DNA from: Gammaproteobacteria bacterium | Lineage (GTDB): Bacteria; Pseudomonadota; Gammaproteobacteria; Steroidobacterales; Woeseiaceae | Direction: 5' to 3' | NCBI GenBank assembly: GCA_029884165.1 | Contig: JAOUIH010000005.1 | Span: forward strand, 1-64,000 | Length of the DNA: 64,000 nucleotides | Shown: in pieces, positions 21,963 through 57,344 of the stretch | How positions within the stretch are numbered: position 1 is the first letter of the stretch | Layout: each line of letters opens with the position of its first letter | The notes under the pieces: model-generated | What the model was told of the DNA's origin: nothing | Databases searched by the model: none | What the model saw: the letters and a program-made list of their open reading frames with translations, nothing else | Made by a program: the position numbers and the translations under genes

Positions 21963-22071
21963 GGTCCGCGCCGGCGGCCCCGCGACGGTCAGCCGTGAAC
22001 CCCGTCAGGCCCGGAAGGGAGCAGCGGCAGCGGTCATACCGGGTGCCGGGGATGTGCTGGCGCGGGCCACC
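21963..22071 (+). ncRNA. ffs: Signal recognition particle 4.5S RNA
   Basis: The universally conserved SRP apical domain GTCAGGCCCGGAAGGGAGCA (GGAA tetraloop and asymmetric loop) lies at about 22004-22024. The ends pair perfectly over 13 positions: GGTCCGCGCCGGC at 21963 with GCTGGCGCGGGCC ending at 22068, allowing two G-U pairs. Internal helices CCCGTC/.../GGTGCCGGGGATG also match 4.5S RNA. The RNA binds Ffh and delivers nascent membrane proteins. Its location just upstream of dnaX is the classic gammaproteobacterial arrangement. CTCGACCCTTT follows; no strong terminator is visible. Confidence 0.93.
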
Positions 22072-27493: not shown

Positions 27494-28177
27494 ATGAATG
27501 AGCGATTGATTGGGTCAGCGCTGGCTGCGCTGTTGTGCTCGCTGCTTTTCGGGTCGCCGGTGTTGGCCGAAACGGCATGGGTCAGCGACCAATTCGAGAT
27601 CACGCTGAGGTCCGGCCCCAGCACGTCGAATGCCATACAGCTGATGATCAACTCCGGCACGGCGCTGGAAGTCCTGGAGCGCGATCCGGAAACCGGCTAC
27701 AGCAAGGTGCGGACGCAGGGTGGCACCGAGGGCTGGGTTCTCACCCGTTACCTGATGAACGAGCCCAGCGCGCGCGAGCAGCTGGAGTCTCTCAGTGCGC
27801 AGGTCAGCAGTGCGACCGAGCGCGGCACGTCGCTCGGTTCGCAGCTGAACGCGATTCGAAGCGAATACCAGGAGGCGACCAACAGGATTCGCTCGCTGGA
27901 GCGCGAGAAGGAACAGCTCCAGGCCGACCTGGACGAAATCAAGCGTACCGCCGCCAACGTGCTGGGGATCGACAGCCAGAACAAGTCACTGCAGCGGCAG
28001 CTGACCGACACCGAGATCCAGGTCAGTATCCTCGAAGAGGAAAACCGGCAACTAAAGGCCCAGTCCAACAGGACCTGGTTCCTGACAGGCGCCGGCGTTC
28101 TGTTCGGGGGCGTACTCCTCGGGCTGATACTGCCCCGCATGCGCTGGCAGCGACGGTCGCGTTACGACAGCTTCTGA
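27494..28177 (+). CDS. SH3-domain/coiled-coil membrane protein (TIGR04211, YgiM-like)
   Basis: 227 residues. A signal peptide (ALLCSLLFGSPVLA before ETAWV), a bacterial SH3 domain (ITLRSGPSTSNAIQLMINSG to GTEGWVLTRYLM), a coiled coil of about 100 residues and a C-terminal membrane helix (WFLTGAGVLFGGVLLGLILP) ending in Arg-rich residues. This exact architecture defines the TIGR04211/YgiM family, thought to act at the cell wall. The ATG at 27494 directly begins the signal peptide. It converges with ppsA; a GC-rich imperfect hairpin (28181-28216) lies between the stops. Confidence 0.9.
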   Translation: MNERLIGSALAALLCSLLFGSPVLAETAWVSDQFEITLRSGPSTSNAIQLMINSGTALEVLERDPETGYSKVRTQGGTEGWVLTRYLMNEPSAREQLESLSAQVSSATERGTSLGSQLNAIRSEYQEATNRIRSLEREKEQLQADLDEIKRTAANVLGIDSQNKSLQRQLTDTEIQVSILEEENRQLKAQSNRTWFLTGAGVLFGGVLLGLILPRMRWQRRSRYDSF

Positions 28178-51988: not shown

Positions 51989-52029
51989 AAAAGCCGTCTA
52001 TTCGCAAATCGCTGTTCGACCCTATTTTC
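51989..52029 (+). repeat. REP-like repeat end, copy C (right end only)
   Basis: The segment with GCAAATCGCTGTTCGACCC followed by TATTTTCC matches the right ends of the two longer repeats (TTTCCGGCAATCGCGGTTCG at 53145-53164 and TTTCCGCAAATCGCTGTCTG at 54174-54193). It immediately follows the RAYT remnant's stop, where REP elements normally sit. It lies just past the end of the secreted-protein gene on the other strand. Confidence 0.65.
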
Positions 52030-52030
52030 C

Positions 52031-52711
52031 TTATTGGTTGCATACTGGCGCGTTCGCGGCAAGCGCTACGCAAGCGTGCAGTTGATCCTCAGTCAGGTTG
52101 GGGATAAGTCGCAAATCGTAATCACCGATGGCTTCGTCTTGCCGGAGGAACTCGCAGGCACGATAAGGGTTATCATACTGGTCAGCGGTGATATATGCCT
52201 GCGCGTGCGTACGCCAGTCAGCGGTCGCGCAACCGCCATAAATCGCACACTCCTCGGTTGCCAACACGCTTAGCCCTGGCGTGATGTAGCACTGCGTGTA
52301 CCCCGCCGGGACCGAGTCCGTGTCGTTGTACCCGTCAATAGCCATTATCTCTTCCGGCGTGTAACAGGGACACTCGGATTGTTTGGGTACAACGCAGGGC
52401 ATCTCGGGGTCCGTAGATCCTTTTCGCTGGTTGTATTTCTCGAGGATCCGCCGCGCAGGGCCTCGTGCATCGAACAATGCCTGAATCTCCTCTTCCGTCA
52501 GCGGGACGCTCTCGGAAGAAATATCTTGTGCCTCGCAGTAGGCTACGCACAAGCCGTACAACGCCTGTGTCACGCCATCTGCTTGCAACGGGTCACAGAT
52601 GGACTCCTGCACCGGTGTTGTCTGGTCTGGCGACTGCGCCATTGCTGTGGACCCTGAAAGGGTAAGCGCGGCCAGGACGATACCGGAAACGCCCAGAATG
52701 ATGATGTTCAT
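52031..52711 (-). CDS. Cysteine-rich secreted protein under a cyclic-di-GMP riboswitch
   Basis: 226 residues from ATG 52711, with the ribosome site GGGGAG. A signal peptide (IVLAALTLSGSTAMA, cut before QSPDQ) leads to a mature protein with about 12 cysteines spread throughout (CDPLQADGVTQALYGLCVAYC, CPCYTPEEIMAI, CAIYGGC). The cysteines are probably disulfide-bonded outside the cytoplasm. The block GLCVAYCEAQD recurs in hypothetical proteins of aquatic bacteria, as far as I recall. No enzyme motif is visible. The open frame upstream to 52894 is riboswitch RNA, not protein. Function unknown; control by cyclic-di-GMP would fit surface or biofilm behaviour. Confidence 0.8.
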   Translation of the reverse strand: MNIIILGVSGIVLAALTLSGSTAMAQSPDQTTPVQESICDPLQADGVTQALYGLCVAYCEAQDISSESVPLTEEEIQALFDARGPARRILEKYNQRKGSTDPEMPCVVPKQSECPCYTPEEIMAIDGYNDTDSVPAGYTQCYITPGLSVLATEECAIYGGCATADWRTHAQAYITADQYDNPYRACEFLRQDEAIGDYDLRLIPNLTEDQLHACVALAANAPVCNQ

Positions 52712-52712
52712 A

Positions 52713-52722
52713 ATGACTCCCC
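52713..52722 (-). promoter_or_regulatory. Ribosome-binding site complementary to the riboswitch 3' strand
   Basis: On the minus strand GGGGAGTCAT, ending one base before the ATG, contains the Shine-Dalgarno sequence. It is perfectly complementary over 10 bases to ATGACTCCCC of the aptamer's 3' side (52771-52780). The two segments can pair, hiding the site, or stay apart when the aptamer folds. Confidence 0.65.
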
Positions 52723-52769
52723 ATTCACAATTTAACGATGAACGGTAGCTCGGCGGTCTTGGGGTCCTT

Positions 52770-52853
52770 CGGGGAGTCATCCATGGCTTCTCGGAGGAAG
52801 CGAGGACCCGTGGCTTTGCGTCACCGGCTTTCGCCGGATTTGCCTTTGGCGTG
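52770..52853 (-). promoter_or_regulatory. Cyclic-di-GMP-I (GEMM) riboswitch candidate
   Basis: On the minus strand the leader begins CACGCC, then AAAGGCAAAT, then the P2 hairpin CCGGC-GAAA-GCCGG, then the invariant TGACGCAAAGCC, then a P3 arm CGGGTCCTCG ... CGAGAAGCC and a closing ATGACTCCCC. Order and spacing match the GEMM-I consensus: GGCAAA, a stem with GAAA tetraloop, GACGCAAAGCC, and the receptor helix. The base before CAAA is G, as in cyclic-di-GMP aptamers (A in the cGAMP-sensing variant). Its 3' strand pairs with the ribosome site, implying translational control. A small hairpin (CTGACC/GGTCAG) lies just upstream. Confidence 0.8.
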
Positions 52854-52974
52854 TTTGTCTTTTGCGCCTGACCGCGAAGGTCAGCTATAAGCACAAATGC
52901 TTACGGAAACGGACCCGCCTGTCTGCTTCGGTAGACCTGGACCACGTCCAAACCGACGGCGGACTGATAAAGAG

Positions 52975-53168
52975 ATCGGGGTCGAACCGCGAATCATTTT
53001 GCTCGCGCAAGCGTGCGTGGAATCGTTAGCTCATCTTTCGAGACCGAAGCCATTGCTGATTGCACCGTCAACCCTGGAAATAGGCCGGTGCCGGTATTGA
53101 GTTATAGCTGACTGAAATAAATCAACACGGGCATAGCGGCTAATTTCCGGCAATCGCGGTTCGACCCT
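52975..53168 (+). repeat. MITE/REP-like repeat, copy A (about 193 bp)
   Basis: It begins GATCGGGGTCGAACCGCGAA and ends CAATCGCGGTTCGACCC. The end sequences GGGTCGAACCGCGA are inverted copies of each other. It aligns along its whole length with copy B at 54005-54197 in the same orientation, at roughly three-quarters identity by eye. It contains no ORF and fills the gap between the riboswitch leader and trmH. Probably a non-autonomous element. Confidence 0.75.
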
Positions 53169-53193
53169 ATTTTCCCGGCAAATCGCCCCGGCG

Positions 53194-53880: not shown

Positions 53881-54004
53881 CGGTGTTCCTTGGCGCACGT
53901 GTACGAACATCGTAGCAGTAGGCTACGTGCGCGAAACGGTACGGCTTCACAATCGCTCGCTTGTGCGTCGGTCCAGCGCTCCAGCTTATGTTTCAAACCA
54001 CACA

Positions 54005-54197
54005 GATCGGGGTCGAACCGCGAATTATTGCGCTCGCGCATGCCGGCGCGGGATCGTTCGCTGATATTTCGCGACCGAGGTCGTTGCTGAATTCCCTGTC
54101 AACCCGGGAAACAGGTCGATACTGGTGTTGAGCTATGCCGCACTGTAGTAAGTCACACCCGCACAGCGGCTCATTTCCGCAAATCGCTGTCTGACCC
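54005..54197 (+). repeat. MITE/REP-like repeat, copy B (about 193 bp)
   Basis: It begins GATCGGGGTCGAACCGCGAA, identical to copy A over 20 bases, and ends AAATCGCTGTCTGACCC. Its right end runs directly into the IS4-family element, sharing the AAATCG...GACCC bases with the IS terminal repeat. No ORF inside. The gap 53881-54004 shows no gene. Confidence 0.75.
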
Positions 54198-55487
54198 ACT
54201 GCTGTCCCATAGACTCACGTGAATGCCAGATGTGCCTGCGGGTTGGGCGGGTCTGGGACGGTCGGGTCGCCGCGCAGCAGGGCCATCAGATTTCGTCGGG
54301 CGAACAGGTTGAGTTGGAGTAAGCGGATCATTGTTTGTAGGGAGGCGTGAAGTTTCGATGCGTATTTGAGATAGGCGAGCATCAGGTACATGCAAAGCGC
54401 GATCCAGATTTGCGTCATCACGGCGTTTCGGCTGGTGCCCAGGAATGCCTTGATCTTCAGGTTTTGCTTGATCCACTTGAAGAAGAGTTCGATCTGCCAG
54501 CGCTGCCTGTAGCAGGCGGCGATGGTGCTCGCCGAGAGACCGAAGTGGTTGCTCAGAAAGACATAGCGGCGTCCGGTGTCCGCATCCCGGTAAACGACCC
54601 GACGCAGCGGGGCCAGTGCTTCACGGCGAGACTTGATGCCGGTTAACTCAATGGTTTGGTCGCAGATCAGACCCTGTGACTTGTCGACTTTGCGGCGCTC
54701 CACGACCTTGTAACGGGCATCGCGCTTCTGGCGCCCAATGAAGAAAACCCCTTGATTTGTCAGGGTGGTATACCAGCTGTAGTCATCGTATCCCTTGTCG
54801 AAGACGACGATACTGCCGCGCGGCAACGACAGCGAGCGGGCCACTTCGATGTCTGAGCGTCGTGGCTCGGTGAGCGTGGCGAAGGCCGGCAGATGTCCCC
54901 GGTGGTCGAGGCCCAGGTGCAACTTGATGGCGGCCTTGCTCAGCGCAAAATGCCCCCAGGGAAACAGCTTCAGCGACAGATCGATCAGCGAGGAGTCCAG
55001 CGAGTAGAGCGCGTTCTTGAAGCGAAAGCCATGGCCCGGCCGGTGCGTTCTGCAACGCTGGTACAGCGTGCCGAATAGCGCTTCGTAGAACGAGCAGGGC
55101 TGCTGTTCGTTCACCCGGGCCAGCGTCGAGCGGGTCACCCGCAAGGCACCGAGGTGATACCAGCGCGATCGCTGGGCATCGGCGTTGGCGACGACGTCGC
55201 GAAGACTGTGGCGTCCGGAGAGCTGGCCCATCGCCAGGGCGACAAACTGCGACCAGCGAGACGTTTTGCGGAATCGACGGCCGACATGGTGGCGCTCGGC
55301 GAGACCGTCAAATCGATGTCTCGGCACCATTTTCAACAATTGTGCGAATACCGTATTATGATGAGCCATAGGCTTGGTTCCTTCGTTTGATCAACAGGTT
55401 GTGTCGTAACTCCTATTGTATCGAACGACGTGAACCAGGCCTTTTTACTTGCACTTTATGGGACAGCAGTGGGTCTGACCCCGATTT
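54181..55487. mobile_element. IS4-family insertion sequence, intact
   Basis: The outer ends are inverted repeats. 54181-54211 (AAATCGCTGTCTGACCCACT...) and the reverse complement of 55457-55487 agree in 28 of 31 positions, with a perfect 19-base inner core GACCCACTGCTGTCCCATA. A single full-length transposase on the minus strand fills the element. A direct repeat GTCTGAC (54189-54195 and 55473-55479) flanks the narrower model 54196-55472, so the exact ends and target duplication are ambiguous because the ends resemble the local repeat. Confidence 0.85.
54215..55369 (-). CDS. IS4 family transposase
   Basis: 384 residues, complete. The N-terminus MAHHNTVFAQLLKMVPRH matches the DUF4372 domain found in one IS4 subgroup. 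DDE residues: Asp in YSLDSSLIDLSL, Asp in VVFDKGYDDYSWY, and Glu in the Y-(2)-R-(3)-E-(6)-K motif YRQRWQIELFFKWIKQNLK. No frameshift or stop interrupts it, so the element may still be active. It ends close to both inverted repeats of the IS. Confidence 0.93.
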   Translation of the reverse strand: MAHHNTVFAQLLKMVPRHRFDGLAERHHVGRRFRKTSRWSQFVALAMGQLSGRHSLRDVVANADAQRSRWYHLGALRVTRSTLARVNEQQPCSFYEALFGTLYQRCRTHRPGHGFRFKNALYSLDSSLIDLSLKLFPWGHFALSKAAIKLHLGLDHRGHLPAFATLTEPRRSDIEVARSLSLPRGSIVVFDKGYDDYSWYTTLTNQGVFFIGRQKRDARYKVVERRKVDKSQGLICDQTIELTGIKSRREALAPLRRVVYRDADTGRRYVFLSNHFGLSASTIAACYRQRWQIELFFKWIKQNLKIKAFLGTSRNAVMTQIWIALCMYLMLAYLKYASKLHASLQTMIRLLQLNLFARRNLMALLRGDPTVPDPPNPQAHLAFT

Positions 55488-55496
55488 CCCGATTTC

Positions 55497-56984: not shown

Positions 56985-57344
56985 TGGTGGAGGCGGCGGG
57001 AATCGAACCCGCGTCCGCAAGCCCTCTGCCCTGAGGTCTACATGCTTATCCCGGTCTTTGAGTCTCGCTGGCGGCTACCCGACGGGCAGGGAAGACCGAC
57101 AGCCAGCCCGGTACTTGTTTAGCGGTTCGGCCCCGGACGAGCCTCCCTCGCGATCTTGTGAGAGTCGACGCCTGATTCGGACGCACAAGCACGGCTCCGG
57201 TCAGACGGCACCCTACTGGGTTTTAGGCAGCGAGTGCGTAGTTGTCGTCGTTGGCAACTATGGTTTTACAGCTGGATTTACGAGGTAACTGTGCCTCGGC
57301 ATGCACCCAGAGTTTCGCGACCCACGTCGAAGCCAGTCGCCCCC
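56985..57344 (-). ncRNA. ssrA: Transfer-messenger RNA
   Basis: A 360-nt one-piece tmRNA. The 5' end GGGGGCGACTGGCTTCGACG pairs with CGCCTCC before the encoded A-CCA at the 3' end (7-bp acceptor stem). The T-arm is CGGGTTCGATTCCCG. The tag reading frame follows the resume signal: GCC AAC GAC GAC AAC TAC GCA CTC GCT GCC TAA, giving ANDDNYALAA. It rescues stalled ribosomes with SmpB, whose gene lies just upstream on the same strand. Confidence 0.96.

Follow-up and report, generated by a model that had tools for sequence, protein, structure and literature searches.

An apparently distinct c-di-GMP-I riboswitch sub-family with a conserved P3 extension upstream of mostly exported proteins in Woeseiaceae and related Gammaproteobacteria

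Introduction

The bases that contact the ligand in c-di-GMP-I (GEMM-I) riboswitches are, in the Vc2 RNA of Vibrio cholerae, G20, A47 and C92 (PMC4744006), a role that is also given to the G20 equivalent in PMC6274999, and mutations in another GEMM-I RNA indicate that the adenines of the P2 loop matter for binding (PMC9262584). According to work cited in PMC9262584, Vc2 controls translation by masking the ribosome site. Another V. cholerae element, Vc1, is a c-di-GMP-I ON element that lies in a 225-nt leader before the single gene of a secreted surface protein, GbpA, and controls it positively; a conserved P3 extension comparable to the one reported below is not described for it (PMC4744006). 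The cGAMP riboswitches, which are GEMM-I RNAs with A20, are built on the same scaffold. In another family, c-di-GMP-I-GGC (RF03167), the P3 loop is short and the consensus base at the A47 position is G.

Here we analyse a riboswitch in a stretch of 64,000 nucleotides of DNA (the window), and the set of about 145 copies with a long P3 to which it belongs. These copies share with GEMM-I (RF01051) the core, the P2/P3 junction, G20, A47 and C92, the interhelical C-G pair and the position in the 5' leader, but differ in having an insertion in P3, an NAAA loop on P2, no UCUA-type receptor in P3, a shorter distance to the start codon and a strong Shine-Dalgarno (SD) sequence. Like Vc2 they probably act on translation, but there control runs through P1, whereas the long-P3 RNAs carry an anti-SD in P3. 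What is new is apparently the long-P3 sub-family with its extension, while the aptamer class itself is already known. We found no description of the sub-family in the open literature searched.

Woeseiales, which make up 1-22% of 16S sequences, are among the commonest marine-sediment bacteria (PMC7082342); little is known of the particular ecological niches that they occupy.

Results and discussion

A canonical c-di-GMP-I aptamer in the window

A cmscan search places a c-di-GMP-I aptamer at 52853-52740 of the minus strand, with 59.8 bits for RF03167 (E 1.3e-11), a slim margin over the cut-off of 59 bits. The covariance-model scan with RF01051 that the earlier note had called for gives 58.2 bits at the same locus in the search of the own genome, above the cut-off of 35 bits, and a model of our own, R1, made from 19 long-form copies, gives 127.7 bits to the window copy, which is itself part of the R1 alignment. 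All the core elements listed in that note, GGCAAA, a GAAA-capped P2, GACGCAAAGCC and P3, are found in that order, and the identity of the element as a riboswitch is confirmed. The features of the locus are as follows (column counts refer to 131 aligned copies).

52740-52853 (-): c-di-GMP-I (GEMM-I) aptamer, long-P3 form (RF03167, RF01051, R1)
52844 (-): G20-equivalent ligand contact, first G of GGCAAA (column 11: G 125, A 6)
52823-52838 (-): P2 hairpin with GAAA loop, NAAA in the family (both-side changes in all 6 pairs)
52817 (-): A47-equivalent ligand contact (column 38: A in 130 of 131)
52805-52809 (-): P3 5' strand GGGUC (partner 52758-52752, or AGGACCC in the extension)
52759-52804 (-): P3 extension, near-invariant in the family except at its tip (pairwise identities)
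52793-52798 (-): UCCUCC, conserved anti-SD-like segment (UCCUC intact in 106 of 131 copies)
52771-52780 (-): locus-specific complement of the SD region, ATGACTCCCC / AUGACUCCCC (perfect match)
52752-52758 (-): P3 3' strand GACCGCC, including the G of the interhelical C-G pair (P3 pairs 96% kept)
52745 (-): C92-equivalent ligand contact (column 116: C 124, T 5, G 2)
52713-52722 (-): SD region of the target gene, GGGGAGTCAT / GGGGAGUCAU (complementary to ATGACTCCCC)
52031-52711 (-): target gene, exported 226-aa protein with 12 cysteines and no family match (Pfam/NCBIfam search; signal peptide by eye)

The earlier note had derived the ligand specificity from the G that precedes CAAA. The G20 equivalent is indeed present, but as the first G of GGCAAA; the G next to CAAA is G21, the pairing partner of C46. 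Since position 20 is G, the locus does not have the A20 of the cGAMP type, which occurs in 6 of the 131 long-P3 copies. RF03167 is the top Rfam match for the window copy and for most long-P3 copies tested, and it has in common with them a P3 pair in its G-C form; for the ordinary short copies in L012, too, it is the best-scoring model. The "GGC" in its name presumably refers to the G at the A47 position. The locus has A at this position, as do almost all long-P3 copies, which in addition carry the extension in place of the short P3 loop; the locus is therefore canonical there, the GGC label reflects a marginal profile preference, and an assignment to the GGC variant was rejected. With its canonical core the aptamer should, judging from these bases, bind c-di-GMP. 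The own genome codes 18 GGDEF domains, which makes c-di-GMP signalling plausible in this organism.

Size, distribution and structure of the long-P3 family

When the leader was compared by BLAST with 149 related genomes, matches were obtained in 82 of them, in several families and often in multiple copies per genome. The best matches span the whole aptamer region and the insertion, with at most 92% identity, and essentially end at the aptamer bounds (about positions 20-128 of the 171 of the query); the weakest are short matches to ordinary copies. The R1 search, whose lower-scoring matches are likewise ordinary copies, puts the number of long-P3 copies in the order (Woeseiaceae and neighbours) at about 145, spread over about 45 genomes, with up to about 20 in a single genome. 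The hosts of the insertion pattern are Woeseiaceae, Chromatiales and unclassified gammaproteobacterial or proteobacterial MAGs, and outside the order a single genome (G159) among about 360 others of the class has a long-P3 copy. This copy (L277, G159:C83:212-327), in a genome of another order, has A20 and precedes a lipoprotein-like gene, a hint of horizontal spread. In the own genome there are one long-P3 copy and seven ordinary c-di-GMP-I matches, eight in all; two same-strand c-di-GMP-I matches in it lie about 230 nt apart and form a possible tandem (G000:C144:27628-27713 and 27947-28031).

From 140 long-P3 copies taken with their flanks, 131 were aligned, and 95.0% of the cells in this alignment are paired, against 19-40% in slid controls, with 211 both-side changes observed and 60.8 in shuffles. 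Compensatory changes occur in all six P2 pairs and in the G21-C46 pair, and the interhelical C-G pair (columns 35-107) is paired in 95.4% of copies, so that the aptamer structure is strongly supported for the family. We conclude that the long-P3 RNAs are apparently a distinct and undescribed c-di-GMP-I sub-family of marine-sediment bacteria, Woeseiaceae and related Gammaproteobacteria.

A few copies deviate at the contact bases. A20 is present in L138, L170, L187, L205, L251 and L256, and U92 in L137, L140, L162, L221 and L270; judged by these substitutions, such copies could favour a cyclic dinucleotide that contains adenine. Three of the U92 copies, L137, L140 and L162, control related proteins.

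The P3 extension

At the locus, a 46-nt insertion (52804-52759, minus strand) separates the P3 strands GGGUC and GACCGCC, and in the family the extension is usually 35-50 nt long. The family insertion, GGGUCCUCGCUUCCUCCG...GAAGGACCC, is nearly invariant except for its variable tip, while P2 covaries freely. The P2 stem has a mean pairwise identity of 0.59; the values are 0.95 in the P3 5' strand, 0.91 in the ligand junction, 0.89 in the CGCUUCCU block of the insertion, 0.85 around GAAGGACCC and 0.55 at the insertion tip, in a set collected with a model and a query of the long-P3 kind, which may therefore lack the most divergent members. Constraint at the base of the insertion is thus similar to that at the ligand junction. 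The tip varies in both sequence and length, and in the short-tip copies L225, L256, L258, L269 and L273 compensatory hairpins can be seen by eye.

In ordinary c-di-GMP-I copies of this order P2 is capped by GAAA, and P3 contains GGUCUA...CUANGACAGCG, similar in appearance to the tetraloop receptor that a GEMM-I RNA should have. In the long-P3 copies the P2 loop is NAAA (C 62, G 41, A 14 and T 14 among 131 copies) and the UCUA-type P3 motif is absent; the window copy retains GAAA and also lacks this motif in P3. The joint loss of the GAAA loop and the UCUA-type motif suggests that the extension supplies a new contact.

The UCCUC of the insertion is complementary to GGAG(GA). An anti-SD alone does not need a near-invariant extension, which therefore probably does more. 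GGGUCCU and AGGACCC are complementary at 6 or more of 7 pairs in 98% of copies, but as a proven alternative helix this pairing was rejected, because deviant strands pair no better than random partners. A CUUC/GAAG pairing inside the insertion was likewise discarded, being broken in many copies by eye, as was a leader peptide across the insertion (ATGGATGACTCCCCG..., MDDSPKDPK...), since other copies show 1-nt indels and loss of the ATG.

Shine-Dalgarno sequences and mode of control

The earlier note had placed a perfect complement of the ribosome site in the 3' strand of the aptamer. The perfect 10-nt complementarity between ATGACTCCCC and GGGGAGTCAT stands, but the former sits in the P3 insertion. 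The two sites are the only matches in the 64 kb, where 0.10 are expected, and the match returns in 1.8% of trials when the leader is shuffled with GGGGAG kept; on its own it is weak evidence. A locus-specific anti-SD was also rejected as a general rule, since matches of at least 8 nt number 5 in the family, against 5.7 after permutation.

In 80% of long-P3 targets a GGAG is found no more than 20 nt from the start, as compared with 32% of 161 control genes; the two sets also differ in SD length (p 7e-13), with a start-site picker that scores SD strength in both alike. Of 128 long-P3 leaders shorter than 120 nt, 107 carry a GGAG close to the start, whereas 15 are expected from shuffles, and its median position, 7 nt before the start, is that of a normal SD. 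The distance from aptamer to start has a median of 36.5 nt in long-P3 copies (quartiles 30-58) and of 130 nt in ordinary ones. Intrinsic terminators are few in both leader classes and were rejected as the expression platform. A strong GGAG-type SD about 20-40 nt past the aptamer makes control most likely translational, and the near start, the conserved UCCUC and the scarce terminators together favour control by SD masking.

Direction of the switch and alternative readings

Nested folding of this locus gives a minimum free energy of -46.5 kcal/mol with the SD paired in the insertion, and -37.5 kcal/mol with the aptamer enforced and the SD released, which is one of the two options of the earlier note, that the bound fold frees the site. 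With the Vienna programs, SD accessibility at the window locus rises from 0.008 to 0.36 (SD:insert pairing 0.99); over 94 loci it goes from 0.28 free to 0.45 with the aptamer enforced, increasing in 82% of them, although part of this rise is trivial because the enforced aptamer occupies other bases. SD:insert pairing in nested folds is modestly above that with shuffled inserts (0.22 vs 0.15, p 0.045). These folds make ON likelier than OFF, with the proviso that nested folding programs are blind to pseudoknots, and a pseudoknot would make the switch OFF.

We consider, with a probability of roughly 0.55, that the long-P3 RNAs are a c-di-GMP-I sub-family with a canonical core, a generic anti-SD in P3 and a translational ON switch. 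In this mechanism, the near-invariant P3 extension with its UCCUCC would replace the GAAA-loop/UCUA-type receptor pair; without ligand, the extension would pair with the SD at the expense of P3 and mask it, whereas binding of c-di-GMP would stabilise the aptamer P3 and free the SD, turning translation ON. The extra 10-nt match would strengthen the masked state at this locus. An ON element before a secreted protein has a precedent in Vc1 and GbpA (PMC4744006). The data show membership in the class, conservation of both structure and extension, strong SDs close by and targets that are mostly exported; the ligand, the SD:anti-SD pairing in the cell and the ON direction are what we infer here. It counts against this reading that strong SDs could simply mark highly expressed genes, and that this genome has a single long-P3 copy.

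The main competitor, considerably less probable, is a pseudoknot OFF switch, in which the single-stranded UCCUCC (or CUCCCC) of the bound aptamer pairs with the SD, so that c-di-GMP represses translation. A conserved, preorganised anti-SD would fit a pseudoknot, the UCCUC positions are largely unpaired in the isolated extension (0.49-0.80), and Vc2 is a precedent for a translational OFF c-di-GMP-I switch, as cited in PMC9262584; yet the nested folds at this and most other loci favour masking of the SD in the ligand-free state, and in most loci the pseudoknot would have only 4-6 generic base pairs. Somewhat less probable still is that the extension is mainly a structural or protein-binding module, either a receptor for the NAAA loop or the site of an RNA-binding protein, to which the SD match is secondary. 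This would account for an extension gained together with the loss of the GAAA loop and the UCUA-type receptor, for a conservation beyond what an anti-SD needs and for the maintained GGGUCCU/AGGACCC complementarity, but this helix lacks covariation beyond conservation, and a purely structural role does not predict the strong SDs, which are specific to long-P3 leaders.

It is very improbable that the family is a dispersed mobile repeat that only resembles a riboswitch. Many near-identical copies per genome and a MITE-like element adjoining the window copy would be expected of one, but conservation stops at the aptamer boundaries, the P2 and junction pairs covary with compensatory changes, nearly all copies lie directly upstream of genes, and relatives that have the riboswitch lack the MITE. 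No copies were matched in viral contigs or plasmids, and on that basis we also rejected the idea that the riboswitch belongs to a mobile element or to a gene of a phage or plasmid.

Returning to the translational ON switch, a generic anti-SD in P3 would make it independent of the gene controlled. A near-invariant graft in P3, with the classic loop/receptor lost and a generic anti-SD gained, is an unusual expression-platform design. Tentatively, and with less confidence than in the switch itself, we propose that the module replaces the tetraloop/receptor, docking the aptamer and at the same time serving as a universal, gene-independent anti-SD, which would make the family a portable translational c-di-GMP switch and a separate sub-class.

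Target genes

The aptamer ends 28 nt upstream of the 12-cysteine protein gene, whose product has no Pfam or NCBIfam match and, as the earlier note had it, is exported, cysteine-rich and of no known family. The family to which it belongs (CDxLQ..LYGLCVAFCEA...NYNRKK..DPxMPC) has a patchy occurrence across several gammaproteobacterial families and is covered by neither a Pfam nor an NCBIfam model; a paralog is present in the own genome (G000:C138:32296-32979; L011, L048). No riboswitch was found at the paralog or at the homolog loci in other families, and a link of the riboswitch to this protein family was rejected.

The genes downstream of the 140 long-P3 copies form 93 clusters (about 90 unrelated families), with starts set by a simple score that may be wrong in individual cases. 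A strongly hydrophobic N-terminus is present in 75% of these targets and in 46% of controls (p 3e-7), and 29 targets have a lipobox-like motif; the targets of ordinary c-di-GMP-I copies are likewise mostly exported. Scattered Pfam matches include subtilase, papain-type protease, pullulanase domains, Kelch, FG-GAP, SLH, Calx-beta, surface Ig-like and PagL. As this locus is one of about 145 long-P3 RNAs before so many unrelated families, it is the extension and the regulon that are special, and not this protein. The interpretation of the earlier note is thus partly supported, and the finding is more interesting than first stated, comprising a sub-family, a P3 module, a generic anti-SD and a mostly exported regulon. 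The RNA tag on these families would also provide a candidate list of c-di-GMP-controlled surface and extracellular proteins.

Neighbourhood of the riboswitch

Just upstream of the riboswitch, and near an insertion sequence, lie two copies, 78% alike, of a MITE-like element of about 205 nt (window 52967-53175 and 54004-54205), which ends in 14-nt perfect terminal inverted repeats (GGGTCGAACCGCGA). The element was not found in the other relatives searched, and solo ends are present at 52007-52030 and at G000:C248:12273-12296. The insertion sequence (54176-55492) codes for a DUF4372/DDE_Tnp_1 transposase (54215-55369) and has 36-nt inverted ends similar to those of the MITE. The window also contains a small SRP RNA at 21969-22065 (plus strand) and a tmRNA with the tag ANDDNYALAA at 56985-57344 (minus strand).
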